From Alphaproteobacteria bacterium (lineage in GTDB: Bacteria; Pseudomonadota; Alphaproteobacteria; UBA9219; RGZA01): a DNA stretch of 64,000 bases. Position 1 is the stretch's first letter. Each line of letters begins with the position of its first letter. The DNA is taken from positions 62,001-126,000 of the forward strand of contig JANRLI010000007.1 of assembly GCA_033762625.1 (NCBI GenBank), given 5' to 3'. Positions 2,480-20,407 of this stretch are shown here, in pieces. The translations under genes and the position numbers were made by a program. The notes beneath the pieces are model-generated. The model saw only the letters and a program-made list of their open reading frames with translations, was not told the DNA's origin and ran no database searches.

Positions 2480-3573
2480 GATTTCACTTCAATATAGCTT
2501 CGTTCGATACGATTTCCTAAATGCGTCATCAATTCATAGCCGAGTGTGCCAATTTGCGCGGCCCAATCATCAACGCTTTGATGCGCGCCCACAATTTCAA
2601 CCATCCCGCCAACATGCACAAGATTTTCCGGAACCTTGCTTACATCAACCATCACTAAATCCATTGAAACGCGGCCAACAACAGGCACTGCAATTCCATG
2701 AAGATAAAAATGATGACCAGTGGTCTGGTCGTTATTGCTAAAAACACGATGCAGACCATCGGCATATCCGTATGCCAAAGCTGCCAGCCTCATGCCTTTT
2801 TGAACACGTTGCGTTGCACCGTAGCCAACGGTGCCATCACTGTCAATTGAACGAAGCTGGATAATCGGGGCGTGAACAGATAACGCGTTTTTAAGGCCCT
2901 TTAGGCCATTCGTCCCCGAAAGTGCACGGCCAGGGCGCACTTGGTCGAAATGCATGTGTGTCCCTAAAAAAACACCATGCGAATTCGCCAATGTTCGTTT
3001 GGCGGAAACAAAATGTTTTGTTGCCCCAATGAATTTGGCCCGCTGCTGCTCGTTCATGGGGTGCAGCGGTTCATCGGAACACGCAAAATGGCTCATCACC
3101 ATTTTTACATCCACGCCATCCAGCAAACTGGGGGTGTGGATCAGCATGTTCCATTCCGATGCGCCAAATCCAATACGGTTCATGCCGGTATCCACGTGCA
3201 GATTGACCGGAATGATTTCCCCTTTTTTCTTGGCGGTTTCGCGCATGCGGGTAAGCGCGCCTAAATCAGTGATGATGGGCGTGATGTTTTTTGTCTGCGC
3301 TTCCGCTTCGCTCCCATTTGGAATGCCATGCAATACGTAGATAGTCGTATCACTGTGAAGCGCACGGATGGCTAGCGCTTCTTCGAGATGCGCTACATAA
3401 AATGTACGACAACCTGCAGCGTATAATGTTTTGGCTAGCGGAATAGCGCCAAGGCCATATCCATCGGCCTTAATCGTCGCTGCAACCTCGGCATTACCGC
3501 ACATGCTTTGCAGCACGCGAAAATTATCGGCAATAATCCCTAAATCAATGGTAGCAAGAGCCCCGGCAATCAC
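2476..3573 (-). CDS. alr: Alanine racemase
   Basis: This PLP-dependent enzyme interconverts L- and D-alanine and supplies D-alanine for peptidoglycan. At 365 residues it is of normal length. The PLP lysine lies in ATIKADGYGLGA (Lys35), and the catalytic tyrosine region VGYGATQR and the later YGYADGLHR are present. The start is a GTG (MIAGALATIDL), which aligns with the usual ATIDL opening of Alr. It lies 22 bases downstream of dnaB and overlaps mlaE by four bases. The dnaB-alr pairing is common in alphaproteobacteria. No second alr or dadX is visible here. Confidence 0.95.
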   Translation of the reverse strand: MIAGALATIDLGIIADNFRVLQSMCGNAEVAATIKADGYGLGAIPLAKTLYAAGCRTFYVAHLEEALAIRALHSDTTIYVLHGIPNGSEAEAQTKNITPIITDLGALTRMRETAKKKGEIIPVNLHVDTGMNRIGFGASEWNMLIHTPSLLDGVDVKMVMSHFACSDEPLHPMNEQQRAKFIGATKHFVSAKRTLANSHGVFLGTHMHFDQVRPGRALSGTNGLKGLKNALSVHAPIIQLRSIDSDGTVGYGATQRVQKGMRLAALAYGYADGLHRVFSNNDQTTGHHFYLHGIAVPVVGRVSMDLVMVDVSKVPENLVHVGGMVEIVGAHQSVDDWAAQIGTLGYELMTHLGNRIERSYIEVKS

Positions 3574-11794: not shown

Positions 11795-11927
11795 AATGGC
11801 CTTAAAGGAGTCTTGTTTTTGATGGTATTTCGCTTTGTTCTTACGGTAGTCTTGCCAGCAACCGCCCTTCGCGCAAGCGAGAATCCATCACTACGCCAAA
11901 TTAACGCAATCCTTGGGAATAGAACGA

Positions 11928-12395
11928 ATGAAGCAAAGCCTACTCATCGCAATTTTTTTGGCGTTAATGCCTATCCTTGCGGTTGCAGGCGAATGTTATA
12001 CCCCAGAGGAGTTTGAAGCGGAGCAGGGGCTGCGCCTGCATACCGATCTCGAAGTCATTATGCTCACCTGCAAATATGATGGCTATCGCCGTCCCTTGAA
12101 AGATAGCTATGCCGTGTTCTTGAAAAAGTATTCAACGCAAATCCGTAAATGGGAAAATACCATCGCCCGTGTGTACGCCGCAACCGGTGGTAGCCGCAAT
12201 GAAGTGATAGATAATTTCAGAACCGCATTGGCAAACCAGAAAAGCGGGGAGTCCAGCACGCTCACCCCGCGCCAGTTCTGCATCAAATATGCGAATTGGG
12301 TTCCTGCGGTGGCGGCATGGTCGCCCGACCAAGTCATAGTATATGTGCGCACACCAGACGGTGCGCGCAACCCGCGCAAACCGCTTTGTCAATAA
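11928..12395 (+). CDS. Hypothetical exported protein, 155 aa
   Basis: I do not recognise this family. The ATG at 11928 starts a clear signal peptide (KQSLLIAIFLALMPILAVAG) with cleavage likely before ECYTPEEF. A TTG 15 bases upstream would add five residues and is less likely. The mature part is about 135 residues with four cysteines (ECYTP, LTCKYDG, RQFCIKY, KPLCQ), which could form two disulfides in the periplasm. It lies 36 bases upstream of livH, in the same direction. Confidence 0.7.
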   Translation: MKQSLLIAIFLALMPILAVAGECYTPEEFEAEQGLRLHTDLEVIMLTCKYDGYRRPLKDSYAVFLKKYSTQIRKWENTIARVYAATGGSRNEVIDNFRTALANQKSGESSTLTPRQFCIKYANWVPAVAAWSPDQVIVYVRTPDGARNPRKPLCQ

Positions 12396-14626: not shown

Positions 14627-14638
14627 GTATTGAACGAT

Positions 14639-14956
14639 ATGCCCAAAGTTATTTTTATTGAACGCGATGGACGCGAACGCGAAGTGGAAGCGCCTGTTGG
14701 CAGCACGTTATTAAGCATCGCGCACATGCATAAGATTGATTTGGAAGGCGCGTGCGATCATTCATTGGCCTGCGCAACTTGCCATGTAATTGTGGATACG
14801 GGTTGGTATGATGTGTTGCCCGAGCCCGAAGCCGATGAAATGGATATGCTGGATTTGGCTGTGGGCCTCACTAAAACGTCCCGCCTTGGATGCCAGATTA
14901 TTATGCGCGAGGAATATAACGGCCTGACCGTTAAGCTGGCTGGCAAAGCAAAGTAG
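14639..14956 (+). CDS. [2Fe-2S] ferredoxin, adrenodoxin type
   Basis: This is a small electron carrier (105 residues from the ATG at 14639; a TTG at 14630 would add three). The cluster cysteines are in ACDHSLACATC (C-x5-C-x2-C) and RLGCQI, the arrangement of adrenodoxin-like ferredoxins such as Fdx of the ISC system. The acidic EPEADEMDMLDLA stretch is the usual partner-binding surface. It lies 12 bases after livM, so it is probably cotranscribed, although a functional link to amino acid transport is not expected. Possible partners are P450s or iron-sulfur assembly; no isc gene is nearby. Confidence 0.9.
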   Translation: MPKVIFIERDGREREVEAPVGSTLLSIAHMHKIDLEGACDHSLACATCHVIVDTGWYDVLPEPEADEMDMLDLAVGLTKTSRLGCQIIMREEYNGLTVKLAGKAK

Positions 14957-15099: not shown

Positions 15100-15990
15100 A
15101 TGCCTAGTTTAAAAGACCTCAAAGTTCGCATCGAGAGTGTGAAGTCCACTCGCAAGATTACCTCGGCCATGAAAATGGTAGCCGCAAGCAAATTGCGCCG
15201 CGCGCAAGAACAAGCCGAAGCGGGTCGTCCATATGCCGATGCCATGACGCGTATCATCGCATCGCTTACTGCCAATCTGGTGGTTGATAGCTCATCACCA
15301 AAATTGCTGAGCGGTTCGGGCAAAAAAGAAATTGTCGCGTTGATTGTGGTTACCTCTGACCGCGGATTATGCGGCGGGTTCAATTCATCCATCGTGCGCG
15401 AAGCGCGCAAGCAAATCCGCAAACTGAAAGCGGAAGGCAAGCAGGTAAAACTTATCACTGTTGGACGCAAAGGACGTGACCAGCTGCGGCGTGAATATGC
15501 GGACATGATGCTGGCAACTTATGAAGATGTTGGTCGCCGCAAGCTCAGCTTTGCCGATGCGGATGCTATTTCGCAGAAAGTTCAGGATTTGTATGAAGAA
15601 GGCGCGTTTGATGAAGCGCACATGATTTACAACCGCTTCAAAAACGTGATTACACAGGTTGTAACGCAGCAACAAATCATTCCTGTTCCGATGCCGGAAG
15701 TGGATGCGACCAAGCCAAAAGAACAAACCGCATCTGCCGTCTATGAATTCGAACCAGATGAAACAGCAATTCTGGCTGATTTATTGCCGAAGAATATTTC
15801 CGTGATGCTTTACAGTGCGCTGCTTGAAAGTGCAGCGGGCGAGCAGGGCGCACGCATGAACGCAATGGATAATGCAACGCGCAATGCAGGCGACATGATT
15901 GGCCGCTTGAGCTTGCAGTACAACCGTGCGCGTCAGGCATACATCACCAAGGAAATGATTGAAATCGTAACCGGTGCAGAGGCAGTTTAA
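15100..15990 (+). CDS. atpG: F1 ATP synthase gamma subunit
   Basis: The gamma subunit is the rotating central shaft of F1. Its N-terminal coil starts [20 protein letters not shown] with the usual [16 protein letters not shown], and the C-terminal coil ends in [30 protein letters not shown] marks the conserved middle. The length (296) is normal. The usual upstream genes atpH (delta) and atpA (alpha) are missing here: a ferredoxin gene lies 143 bases upstream, so atpG may be read from its own promoter. atpD follows after 57 bases. Confidence 0.96.
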
Positions 15991-16035: not shown

Positions 16036-17475
<1,440 letters not shown>

Positions 17476-17588
17476 GCCAACAATTACAGCTTTTACCGCG
17501 CTCCTCCTGATTACGAAAGTAAAAGGGCAGTGGCAGTGGCGCGTGTGAATTCATTAGAATGACCTAAGAAGCATTTTTTAGGTGATTA

Positions 17589-18131
17589 ATGAGTGACCAA
17601 AAACGGCCTGCCCTAACAGGGCTATTGCAGGACATTGACCATAAACTGACGCCCCATGGCTTCAAAAAGATTGATAGCCCGAAAGCATGGGCTGATTTGC
17701 AGCAGTATCTGCACGTTACTGACCTCACCGGAGCGGGTGAAGTTCCGTTACGTGCGAACGACCATATCTGGGTTCGGGTGGAGCGTGACGCGGAAGGCAC
17801 CCTCCACCATGGGATGGTTGTCGTTCCATTTGATCCGTCAGTGACGATTGAAACACCGGCACTACATCTCTATGGCACCATTACGCCAGAAGGCGGATCG
17901 TTAGAAGATGCCGTGGTCACTGCTGGCAGTAGGGTAATGAATATCTTTACGTTGCTGCATTTGCCGGATGCACATTTTGCTTCGAAGCTGGAAACAAGCC
18001 AAGCCGCGCAACGCCAACAAGGTGAGACAGTGCCCGTAAGACCCGGTTTGCAGCCTGAACCCGAAGGCTTGAAAGCCATAGCATTAAAGGGGTTGCGTGC
18101 TGCATTGCGGTACCTGACCAGAAAGCCATAA
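17589..18131 (+). CDS. Unknown protein inside the ATP synthase block (first of two)
   Basis: I do not recognise this 180-residue protein. It has no signal peptide or membrane helix. The gene lies between atpD and atpC in the same direction, with AGG six bases before its ATG. Its layout matches that of the following gene by eye: a helix ending GFKKID (GFIKIN next door), NDHIWVRV against RDQVWASM, a hydrophobic strand, then LPDAHF against MPDFFF, and a basic C-terminal helix (LKGLRAALRYL). This suggests that the two are diverged duplicates. A role linked to ATP synthase rests on position alone. Confidence 0.65.
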   Translation: MSDQKRPALTGLLQDIDHKLTPHGFKKIDSPKAWADLQQYLHVTDLTGAGEVPLRANDHIWVRVERDAEGTLHHGMVVVPFDPSVTIETPALHLYGTITPEGGSLEDAVVTAGSRVMNIFTLLHLPDAHFASKLETSQAAQRQQGETVPVRPGLQPEPEGLKAIALKGLRAALRYLTRKP

Positions 18132-18153
18132 GCTTAGTTGTGTTGGAGTGACC

Positions 18154-18693
18154 ATGTCACAATTGTCAATCACCGCCCCCCGCGTTCCGATACAAACTGT
18201 TGTTGCGACGGTGGACGATGTGTTTCAGCAAAATGGTTTTATCAAAATCAATTTTAGTGATGAAGAAAATATGGAAGCCCACATGCTGCGCGAATATTCG
18301 CGGCTGCATCTTCACTTGAAGGGGAGCCATGTGTTCGCTGAGCGTGATCAGGTTTGGGCCAGCATGACGCCAATAGCATCAGGCGCGGTTGTGTATGTCA
18401 TCTTCCATATCAAGCATAGCGACCTAAATGGCTTTTCGCAGAACAGTACCATCCACCGCCATGACGCCATCCTGCAATATGAAGGAACAAGAGAGGATGG
18501 GCATGAAAACTCCACGCTTGAGAGCAGGGATACAACCTTGCTGGCGCGTGAATTGGTCAATATGCCGGACTTCTTTTTCCGCCCGCGCTTTAAAGGCCGG
18601 CAGGCGGGAAGGGGATCGTTTATGAGCACCCTAAGGCCGTCTTTATTATCGATTGGCAGGGTCTTCAGCGGGTTAAAAAGCGGCTTGCAATAG
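18154..18693 (+). CDS. Unknown protein inside the ATP synthase block (second of two)
   Basis: This 179-residue soluble protein has no family I recognise. The ATG at 18154 is preferred over the in-frame GTG at 18148 because GGAG (18145-18148) is properly spaced only for the ATG. It shares a weak pattern with the preceding gene (GFIKIN, RDQVWASM, a strand VVYVIFHIKH, NMPDFFFRPRF, then a basic tail). It follows that gene by 22 bases and precedes atpC by 26. Codon use does not look foreign. The pair may be a duplicated accessory gene that settled in the operon. Confidence 0.65.
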   Translation: MSQLSITAPRVPIQTVVATVDDVFQQNGFIKINFSDEENMEAHMLREYSRLHLHLKGSHVFAERDQVWASMTPIASGAVVYVIFHIKHSDLNGFSQNSTIHRHDAILQYEGTREDGHENSTLESRDTTLLARELVNMPDFFFRPRFKGRQAGRGSFMSTLRPSLLSIGRVFSGLKSGLQ

Positions 18694-18719
18694 CCTGAAA
18701 AATTGCTAAAAACATCCCT

Positions 18720-19139
18720 ATGAACACACTCCAATTCGACCTTGTTTCCCCTGAAAAAAAGCTCTTCTCCGCGCCGGTTGCGATGGCAACTTTGCCCGGT
18801 ACCGAAGGTGACTTCAGCGTGCTTGCTGGCCATGCGCCCTTCATTTCCACGATGCGCGTGGGCGTTATTGATGTGTATGAAGAAAAAGAAACCCAGATCA
18901 CCAAGCGTATGCTGGTTTCCGGCGGCATAGTAGAAGTAAACCCGACCGGCTGCACCGTATTGGCGGAAGAAGTGGTACCATTGGAAGACGTTTCGGTTGA
19001 ATCGCTTGGCGTTGAACACACCAAACTGGTGGAACGTCTGGCCGTTGCCGAAGGCGATGCAAAGGTTGCGCTGCGTGCTGCCGTTGAACTTTCGGAAAAG
19101 AAGCTGGAGCTGCTCCGCTTCCTTCGTTACCACCACTAA
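18720..19139 (+). CDS. atpC: F1 ATP synthase epsilon subunit
   Basis: The epsilon subunit sits at the foot of the F1 shaft and can restrain ATP hydrolysis. The N-terminal beta sandwich is recognisable from QFDLVSPEKKLFSAPVAMA, PGTEGDFSVLAGHAPF and the glycine-rich LVSGGIVEVNP; a two-helix C-terminal part follows (139 residues in all). It is the last gene of the F1 block and converges on a small exported protein three bases downstream. Confidence 0.94.
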   Translation: MNTLQFDLVSPEKKLFSAPVAMATLPGTEGDFSVLAGHAPFISTMRVGVIDVYEEKETQITKRMLVSGGIVEVNPTGCTVLAEEVVPLEDVSVESLGVEHTKLVERLAVAEGDAKVALRAAVELSEKKLELLRFLRYHH

Positions 19140-19412: not shown

Positions 19413-19447
19413 AGGAAAACCGTAACGCAGCGGTGGTTAAGAATGGG

Positions 19448-20263
19448 TTATTGCACCAGAACCGTGCAGTAATAGACATTCGCCTGATAGGGGGCCACAT
19501 AACCTGTTGCCGAGGAAGATTGCTTGCCGCACATTTCGCGCACGGTTGAACCCGAAATTCCGCCCGAGGTTCCAACACTGACGCCGGTGCGCAATCCCCA
19601 ACCGGCATACATATTATATCCAGCTGAATCATTCGTGTTGATAACCGAAGCACTGGATGTGTTGTTTTTCAAAATGCTATTCACTTCATCGCACACATCC
19701 TGCCGGATTGGAAAAATATGAAGGGTCATATTGGCCCGGCGGGATGAACCTGCATTGCAAGTACCGACACCCGTTATGCAATGGGTTCCGCTTAACATCG
19801 GATAACCGGCCCAATAATCCATTTGCGGATCGCCATACCCGCCGCCCCAAAGCCCGGTCGATGGTGTGGCCAAGGTCGCTGATGGTACTTGGGTGAAGGT
19901 CATGGTTCCGCCACGCGGATCATAAAGTGCGCAATTTCCGTTGCCGGCCCTGTTGGTGCCGTTGCTTGATGTGAAATCGCCATTTGTCCATGTCGTGCCA
20001 GTAGGAAAAGTAGGCGGCGTAATATCCAAACGGGTAGGATCGCAATTATGACCCATCAATAATCTGTCCATTGCCGCTTTATAGGCGCTGCATTGGTCGA
20101 TTAATGCGGTTGCCAATGTTCGTGCGCTTTCCTGGGTGCTGCTTGCACTAAATGTGCTACTTCCTGCTGCAATTGCCGTTGCCAGAATAGCCAGCAATGC
20201 CACTACAAAAAGAATGGGTCCGATTGCGATGCCAGTGCGGGAATCAATGCGTTTATGGGTCAT
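19448..20263 (-). CDS. Pilin-like exported protein of unknown family
   Basis: From the ATG at 20263 the protein has 271 residues: a short basic leader (THKRIDSRTG), a hydrophobic helix (IAIGPILFVVALLAILATAI) and a Ser/Thr/Gly/Asn-rich outer domain with about eight cysteines. The layout resembles type IV pilins and pseudopilins, but the conserved glutamate at position 5 of a mature pilin is not evident. An upstream start at 20344 would add 27 residues ahead of the leader and is unlikely. No pilus assembly genes are nearby. It may instead be a minor surface protein anchored by an N-terminal helix. Confidence 0.6.
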   Translation of the reverse strand: MTHKRIDSRTGIAIGPILFVVALLAILATAIAAGSSTFSASSTQESARTLATALIDQCSAYKAAMDRLLMGHNCDPTRLDITPPTFPTGTTWTNGDFTSSNGTNRAGNGNCALYDPRGGTMTFTQVPSATLATPSTGLWGGGYGDPQMDYWAGYPMLSGTHCITGVGTCNAGSSRRANMTLHIFPIRQDVCDEVNSILKNNTSSASVINTNDSAGYNMYAGWGLRTGVSVGTSGGISGSTVREMCGKQSSSATGYVAPYQANVYYCTVLVQ

Positions 20264-20348
20264 ATCCAATACTAATCGATTTACCTGATGCGTTAAAAGT
20301 AGAAATGGAGTTGTAATGACCAGGCCATCATTGACAATACTCAATTCT

Positions 20349-20382
20349 AAAAAAAAGGGGGCTAATCCTGCGATTAGCCCCC
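20349..20382 (-). terminator. Rho-independent terminator of glnA
   Basis: On the minus strand a perfect 11-bp stem GGGGGCTAATC / GATTAGCCCCC with a four-base loop is followed by eight Ts. It lies 26 bases after the glnA stop and so ends the glnA message. Confidence 0.93.
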
Positions 20383-20407
20383 TGTATCGATTTACACCGA
20401 ACCACTC

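Follow-up and report, generated by a model that had tools for sequence, protein, structure and literature searches.

An orphan gene pair inserted between atpD and atpC in the split F1 cluster of an alphaproteobacterium

The F1 gene cluster in the window and in the host order

We analysed a 64,000-nucleotide stretch of an alphaproteobacterial genome (G000), referred to as the window. It carries the F1 genes atpG, atpD and atpC on one strand, together with two orphan genes, p1 and p2, that occupy the space between atpD and atpC (Table 1). A preliminary description, made by eye from the sequence, had reported two open reading frames (ORFs) of about 180 residues at this position, and both were found to be intact. 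It had also called the spacers short. This is true of those between p1 and p2 (22 nt) and between p2 and atpC (26 nt), but not of the first one, between atpD and p1, which measures 113 nt.

Table 1. Features of the F1 cluster and the insert (window coordinates)
Feature	Position	Strand	Evidence or remark
2Fe-2S ferredoxin gene, upstream of atpG	14630..14956	+	PF00111, E 3.5e-12
atpG (F1 gamma)	15100..15990	+	PF00231, E 4.6e-102; NCBIfam equivalog
atpD (F1 beta)	16048..17475	+	TIGR01039, 841.8 bits
Species-specific insert, atpD stop to atpC start	17476..18719	+	1244 bp; overlap TAATG in G001 and G002
p1, orphan gene	17589..18131	+	180 aa, soluble; predicted cationic amphipathic C-terminal helix
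p2, orphan gene	18154..18693	+	179 aa; GTG at 18148 is an alternative start
atpC (F1 epsilon)	18720..19139	+	PF02823, E 5.1e-23

The ferredoxin gene that had been noticed in front of atpG was confirmed by its Pfam match, and a ferredoxin gene is found at the corresponding position in G001, G005, G006 and G010. The genes atpH (245 aa) and atpA (512 aa), which had been said to lie elsewhere, were located next to each other on a different contig (C2) of the same genome. The cluster is therefore correctly described as a split F1 operon, but this is nothing special. In the host order, a small alphaproteobacterial order represented by 33 genomes, we found atpG-atpD-atpC separate from atpA, with no atpA upstream, in all genomes whose neighbourhood was read, while atpH and atpA were adjacent in 26 of 26 readable genomes. 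The split cluster is the ordinary state for this order. Upstream of atpGDC lie livH-livM-ferredoxin in G005, G006 and G010, and guaA with a small conserved ORF in G008, G015, G017, G020 and G026; in others different genes precede it. In the window itself, a 160-aa ORF at 11913-12395 gave no Pfam match. Other families of the order have it beside guaA and atpG too, with 30-40% identity across families, so that it represents a conserved gene of unknown function close to the F1 genes.

The insert is confined to one species

The gene order around atpD was surveyed in the relatives of G000. The insert was found in G000 only and was absent from both congeners, G001 and G002, in which atpD and atpC overlap at the point of insertion. 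In a blastn comparison with G002, which is the sister of G000 (support 0.98), the alignment ended at the last base of atpD (17475) and restarted at 18730, just inside atpC. AtpD of G002 is 99% identical to that of the window over the portion present, and nearby DNA is 82-89% identical. The host genes AtpD and AtpC are intact on either side of the insert. Because both congeners have the overlap instead, p1 and p2 were gained on the terminal branch leading to the host species. Of the two signs that the preliminary description had named as refuting its view, confinement to a single genome is observed but decay of the reading frames is not.

The GC content of the insert (about 0.51) is the same as that of its surroundings. 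No target duplication and no inverted or terminal repeat stands out at its ends, and neither a mobile-element gene nor a donor was found. Within the insert we detected no sigma-70-like promoter, no terminator in the sense direction and no Rfam match to a structured RNA. A search for genes on the antisense strand gave no Pfam match, and an antisense ORF of 262 aa (18348-19136), which overlaps both p2 and atpC, was taken as spurious.

A further region, window positions 19429-20407, contains a 298-aa ORF that looks pilin-like by eye and fails to align to G002. The matching interval in G002 is about 2.26 kb long, compared with 1 kb in the window, which makes this region another variable site, a short way downstream of atpC.

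p1 and p2 are likely to be translated

To judge the length of the two ORFs, we used 2000 first-order Markov sequences as long as the insert; a single sense ORF of 175 aa or more appeared in 11 of them, and two such ORFs appeared in none. p1 is preceded by a moderate Shine-Dalgarno sequence (duplex -2.6 kcal/mol) and p2 by a strong one (GGAG, -5.9 kcal/mol), the latter giving the ATG at 18154 a better ribosome-binding site than the alternative GTG. No Shine-Dalgarno sequence was found upstream of atpC in this genome. In-frame codon scores were 0.00 for p1 and -0.03 for p2, to be read against 0.24 +/- 0.05 for conserved genes of the window and -0.18 +/- 0.12 for wrong frames. For both genes the proper frame scored highest of the six, clearly for p1 and narrowly for p2 (-0.03 versus -0.04 for one antisense frame). 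By these scores the codon usage of both looks coding-like but unadapted, and translation of p1 and p2 is likely. Basic amphipathic C-terminal helices are predicted in both proteins, with a moment of 0.56 at residues 161-178 of p1.

No relatives of p1 and p2 were found, and the two may be old duplicates

Neither protein matched Pfam, NCBIfam, PHROGs or PADLOC. No relative was found in 96 related genomes, in a profile search of 385 genomes of the class, in a seed search of GTDB species genomes or in IMG/VR, and the genome has no paralogue of either gene elsewhere. Among phages and plasmids the best E value was about 0.4, so that a phage or plasmid origin of the pair found no support. The absence of homologues could reflect limited sampling, as the reach of the GTDB and viral scans is restricted to close relatives and metagenome collections lie outside the search. 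The open literature that we searched held no previous account of genes at the atpD-atpC junction.

Neither p2 nor a profile built from p1 and p2 had a match among PDB sequences, and the apparent distant relative of the profile, Lon, was a chance match over 31 residues. The best PDB sequence match of p1 itself was to ATP12, the F1 alpha-subunit assembly chaperone (PDB 2p4x, 2r31 and 2zd2), and was not significant (phmmer E 0.35). p1 differs from ATP12 in length, and the alignment is partial, covering 82 residues (61-142). We attributed this match to chance, since the Pfam search of p1, up to E 1, gave no ATP12 domain.

The preliminary description had pointed to a motif pattern shared by p1 and p2 and had suggested that they are diverged duplicates. 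The pattern is present, and the two proteins can be weakly aligned from end to end, with 21% identity overall. One collinear local alignment over about 150 residues has a BLOSUM62 score of 46, which was reached in 0.65% of plain shuffles and 0.47% of block shuffles (p about 0.005), and by 0.1-0.5% of 857 real protein segments. The duplicate hypothesis is moderately supported by this alignment; BLASTP alone finds nothing. Single-sequence AlphaFold models had pLDDT values of 42.6 (p1) and 31.5 (p2), too poor for a comparison of folds, and matches from a PDB structure search with the p1 model were meaningless at a pLDDT of about 43. The weak collinear similarity, the equal length and the adjacency of the genes make it likely, though not certain, that p1 and p2 are old tandem duplicates.

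Small ORFs at F1 junctions in other genomes

Additional ORFs were found at both internal junctions of atpGDC in other members of the order. Between atpD and atpC, ORFs of 122-180 aa occur in 5 of 25 genomes of the order (G000, G010, G012, G014 and G017), compared with 1 of about 54 families of the class outside it (G069; Fisher p 0.012, computed with 53). Between atpG and atpD they occur in 4 of 23 (G008, G012, G014 and G021), with one clear case in 29 outside the order (G042); this difference is not significant alone (p 0.15, computed with 22). The control junctions within the order carried no ORFs (atpH-atpA 0/26, rplK-rplA 0/28), and the pooled junction test gave p 0.0007 (computed with 9/47), values that have to be read as post hoc, with only two control junctions and with related genomes that are not independent.

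Homology among the junction ORFs was not detectable by pairwise scores or with the p1+p2 profile, and one common family for all of them is unsupported by these comparisons. Unrelated small ORFs of this kind lie at loci L011, L013, L016 and L025 (atpD-atpC) and L011, L013, L014 and L020 (atpG-atpD). Some have a lower GC content than their genome (0.41 versus 0.56 in G021, 0.42 versus 0.54 in G008). No codon signal was seen in the frame of either the atpD-atpC ORF of G014 or the atpG-atpD ORF of G008, and these two may not be real genes. The atpG-atpD ORF of G012 begins with a stretch resembling a signal peptide and matches TPR weakly. In G003 (L010, about 2914-3048), the 135-nt spacer between atpD and atpC is an array of short GAACCT-type repeats.

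Since the inserts are scattered on the tree, the data fit at least four separate events at the atpD-atpC junction; the count becomes five if G010 and G012, which are sisters with unlike ORFs, acquired theirs separately. The two cases outside the order, both in other families, are comparable in position: G069 has one small, Nudix-like ORF at the same atpD-atpC junction (L045), and G042 has a small, retropepsin-like ORF inside the F1 cluster, between atpG and atpD (L063). By eye, these two look like members of recognisable families, unlike p1 and p2.

What merits further attention is the recurrence at F1 junctions. If it is real, it offers natural experiments on how beta-epsilon gene spacing relates to the subunit balance of ATP synthase, and it makes F1 junctions worth searching for small genes not yet described. 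We regard as improbable the far-reaching version of this idea, in which the internal atpGDC junctions are a true recurrent entry point for orphans whose insertion, whatever they encode, uncouples epsilon or beta translation and so retunes F1 ratios, or in which the inserts descend from one hyper-variable family acting on F1.

A probable cargo pair on the atpGDC transcript

We favour, with moderate confidence, the explanation that the orphan pair p1-p2 was gained recently and is carried as cargo on the atpGDC transcript, and that it comprises neither components of ATP synthase nor factors dedicated to it. A segment of 1244 bp, made up of p1, p2 and short leaders, would have been inserted precisely at the atpD-atpC junction of a cluster that was already split. 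The pair, probably old tandem duplicates, would have arrived together from an unsampled source. p1 and p2 would now be read from the transcript for beta and epsilon, each with its own ribosome-binding site, and atpC would have lost its translational coupling to atpD as a side effect. The ratio of epsilon to beta may have changed, because the insert replaced a stop-start overlap that should couple them. We infer a foreign origin, co-transcription and a cargo role for the pair, and an altered translation of epsilon caused by it.

This explanation is favoured by the overlap in both congeners, the lack of relatives, the coding-like but unadapted codon scores and the Shine-Dalgarno sequences of p1 and p2. 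Against it stand the unchanged GC content, the negative searches for a donor, repeats or a mobile-element gene, the limited reach of the homologue searches and the narrow margin of the codon score of p2. A dedicated role in ATP synthase is unlikely because the near-identical synthases of the congeners do without the pair. The site seems to accept cargo, given that unrelated ORFs are also seen at both junctions elsewhere in the order. The preliminary description had suggested that genes kept in a constant operon often act on its product, a suggestion that does not apply here, the pair being absent from both congeners and from all relatives searched; no conserved association of p1 or p2 with synthase genes emerged from the 96 related genomes or the 385 of the class.

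Four other explanations were weighed against the cargo pair. That p1 and p2 serve ATP synthase as accessory factors peculiar to this species, assisting assembly or inhibiting the enzyme through beta or epsilon, is suggested by their position on the same strand between the genes of these subunits, by their basic amphipathic C-terminal helices and by the weak resemblance of p1 to ATP12. However, the pair is missing from congeners with a nearly identical AtpD, the ATP12 match is neither significant nor backed by a Pfam domain, and the p1+p2 profile finds nothing among PDB sequences, so that we hold such a role to be quite improbable. Similar odds apply to the reading of both ORFs as untranslated frames that happen to be open in DNA that was inserted or has decayed. 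The codon signal is indeed weak and there are no homologues to reveal purifying selection, but the Markov sequences never yielded two sense ORFs of this length, p2 has its strong Shine-Dalgarno sequence, in-frame scores exceed those of the other frames, if narrowly for p2, and the two proteins resemble one another.

Slightly more credible, though still unlikely, is a fast-evolving family that is resident at the atpD-atpC junction throughout the order, was lost in most genomes and has become unrecognisable in G010, G012 and G017. ORFs of 122-169 aa do occupy this junction in G010, G012, G014 and G017, a GF dipeptide stands near residues 24-29 in p1, p2 and the ORFs of G010 and G017, and pairwise scores are borderline for G012/G017 (p 0.02) and p1/G010 (p 0.045). 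These scores are not significant after 45 comparisons, and the p1+p2 profile ranks the other junction ORFs no higher than random proteins. Moreover, G010 and G012 are sisters but their ORFs are unlike, and the nearest relatives of G000 and G017 are without any junction ORF. We give least credence to a functional two-gene module (toxin-antitoxin, immunity or phage cargo) that exploits a strong constant promoter. The equal size of the proteins, the recent gain, the atypical codons and the presence of unrelated cargo at these sites in related genomes would suit it; on the other hand, searches of PADLOC, PHROGs, phages and plasmids gave nothing, and the similarity between p1 and p2 speaks against a classical toxin-antitoxin pair.

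Read as a cargo pair, the locus resembles a mosaic operon, in which genes have been inserted in an existing operon. It has a same-strand pair between two intact genes of an old operon, and sister taxa lack the insert at the orthologous junction. It differs in that the donor was not found, so that we infer the transfer. Codon usage in the insert is anomalous; its GC content is not. A further difference is the site itself, the F1 beta/epsilon junction, with repeated unrelated insertions in the order. p1-p2 provides a new case of operon insertion by orphan genes. It shows an orphan pair entering a highly conserved gene cluster without breaking it, with the pre-insertion state visible in the sisters.

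Observations at a ribosomal protein operon

At L164:983-2642, a 146-aa ORF comes after rplK-rplA, and no rplJ could be made out by eye over the following 1.4 kb read, suggesting that another housekeeping operon also looks rearranged. In G010 (L174), rplK and rplA contain frameshifts that resemble assembly errors, and several tandem small ORFs downstream of rplA share the motif QQWRVVERAMC.
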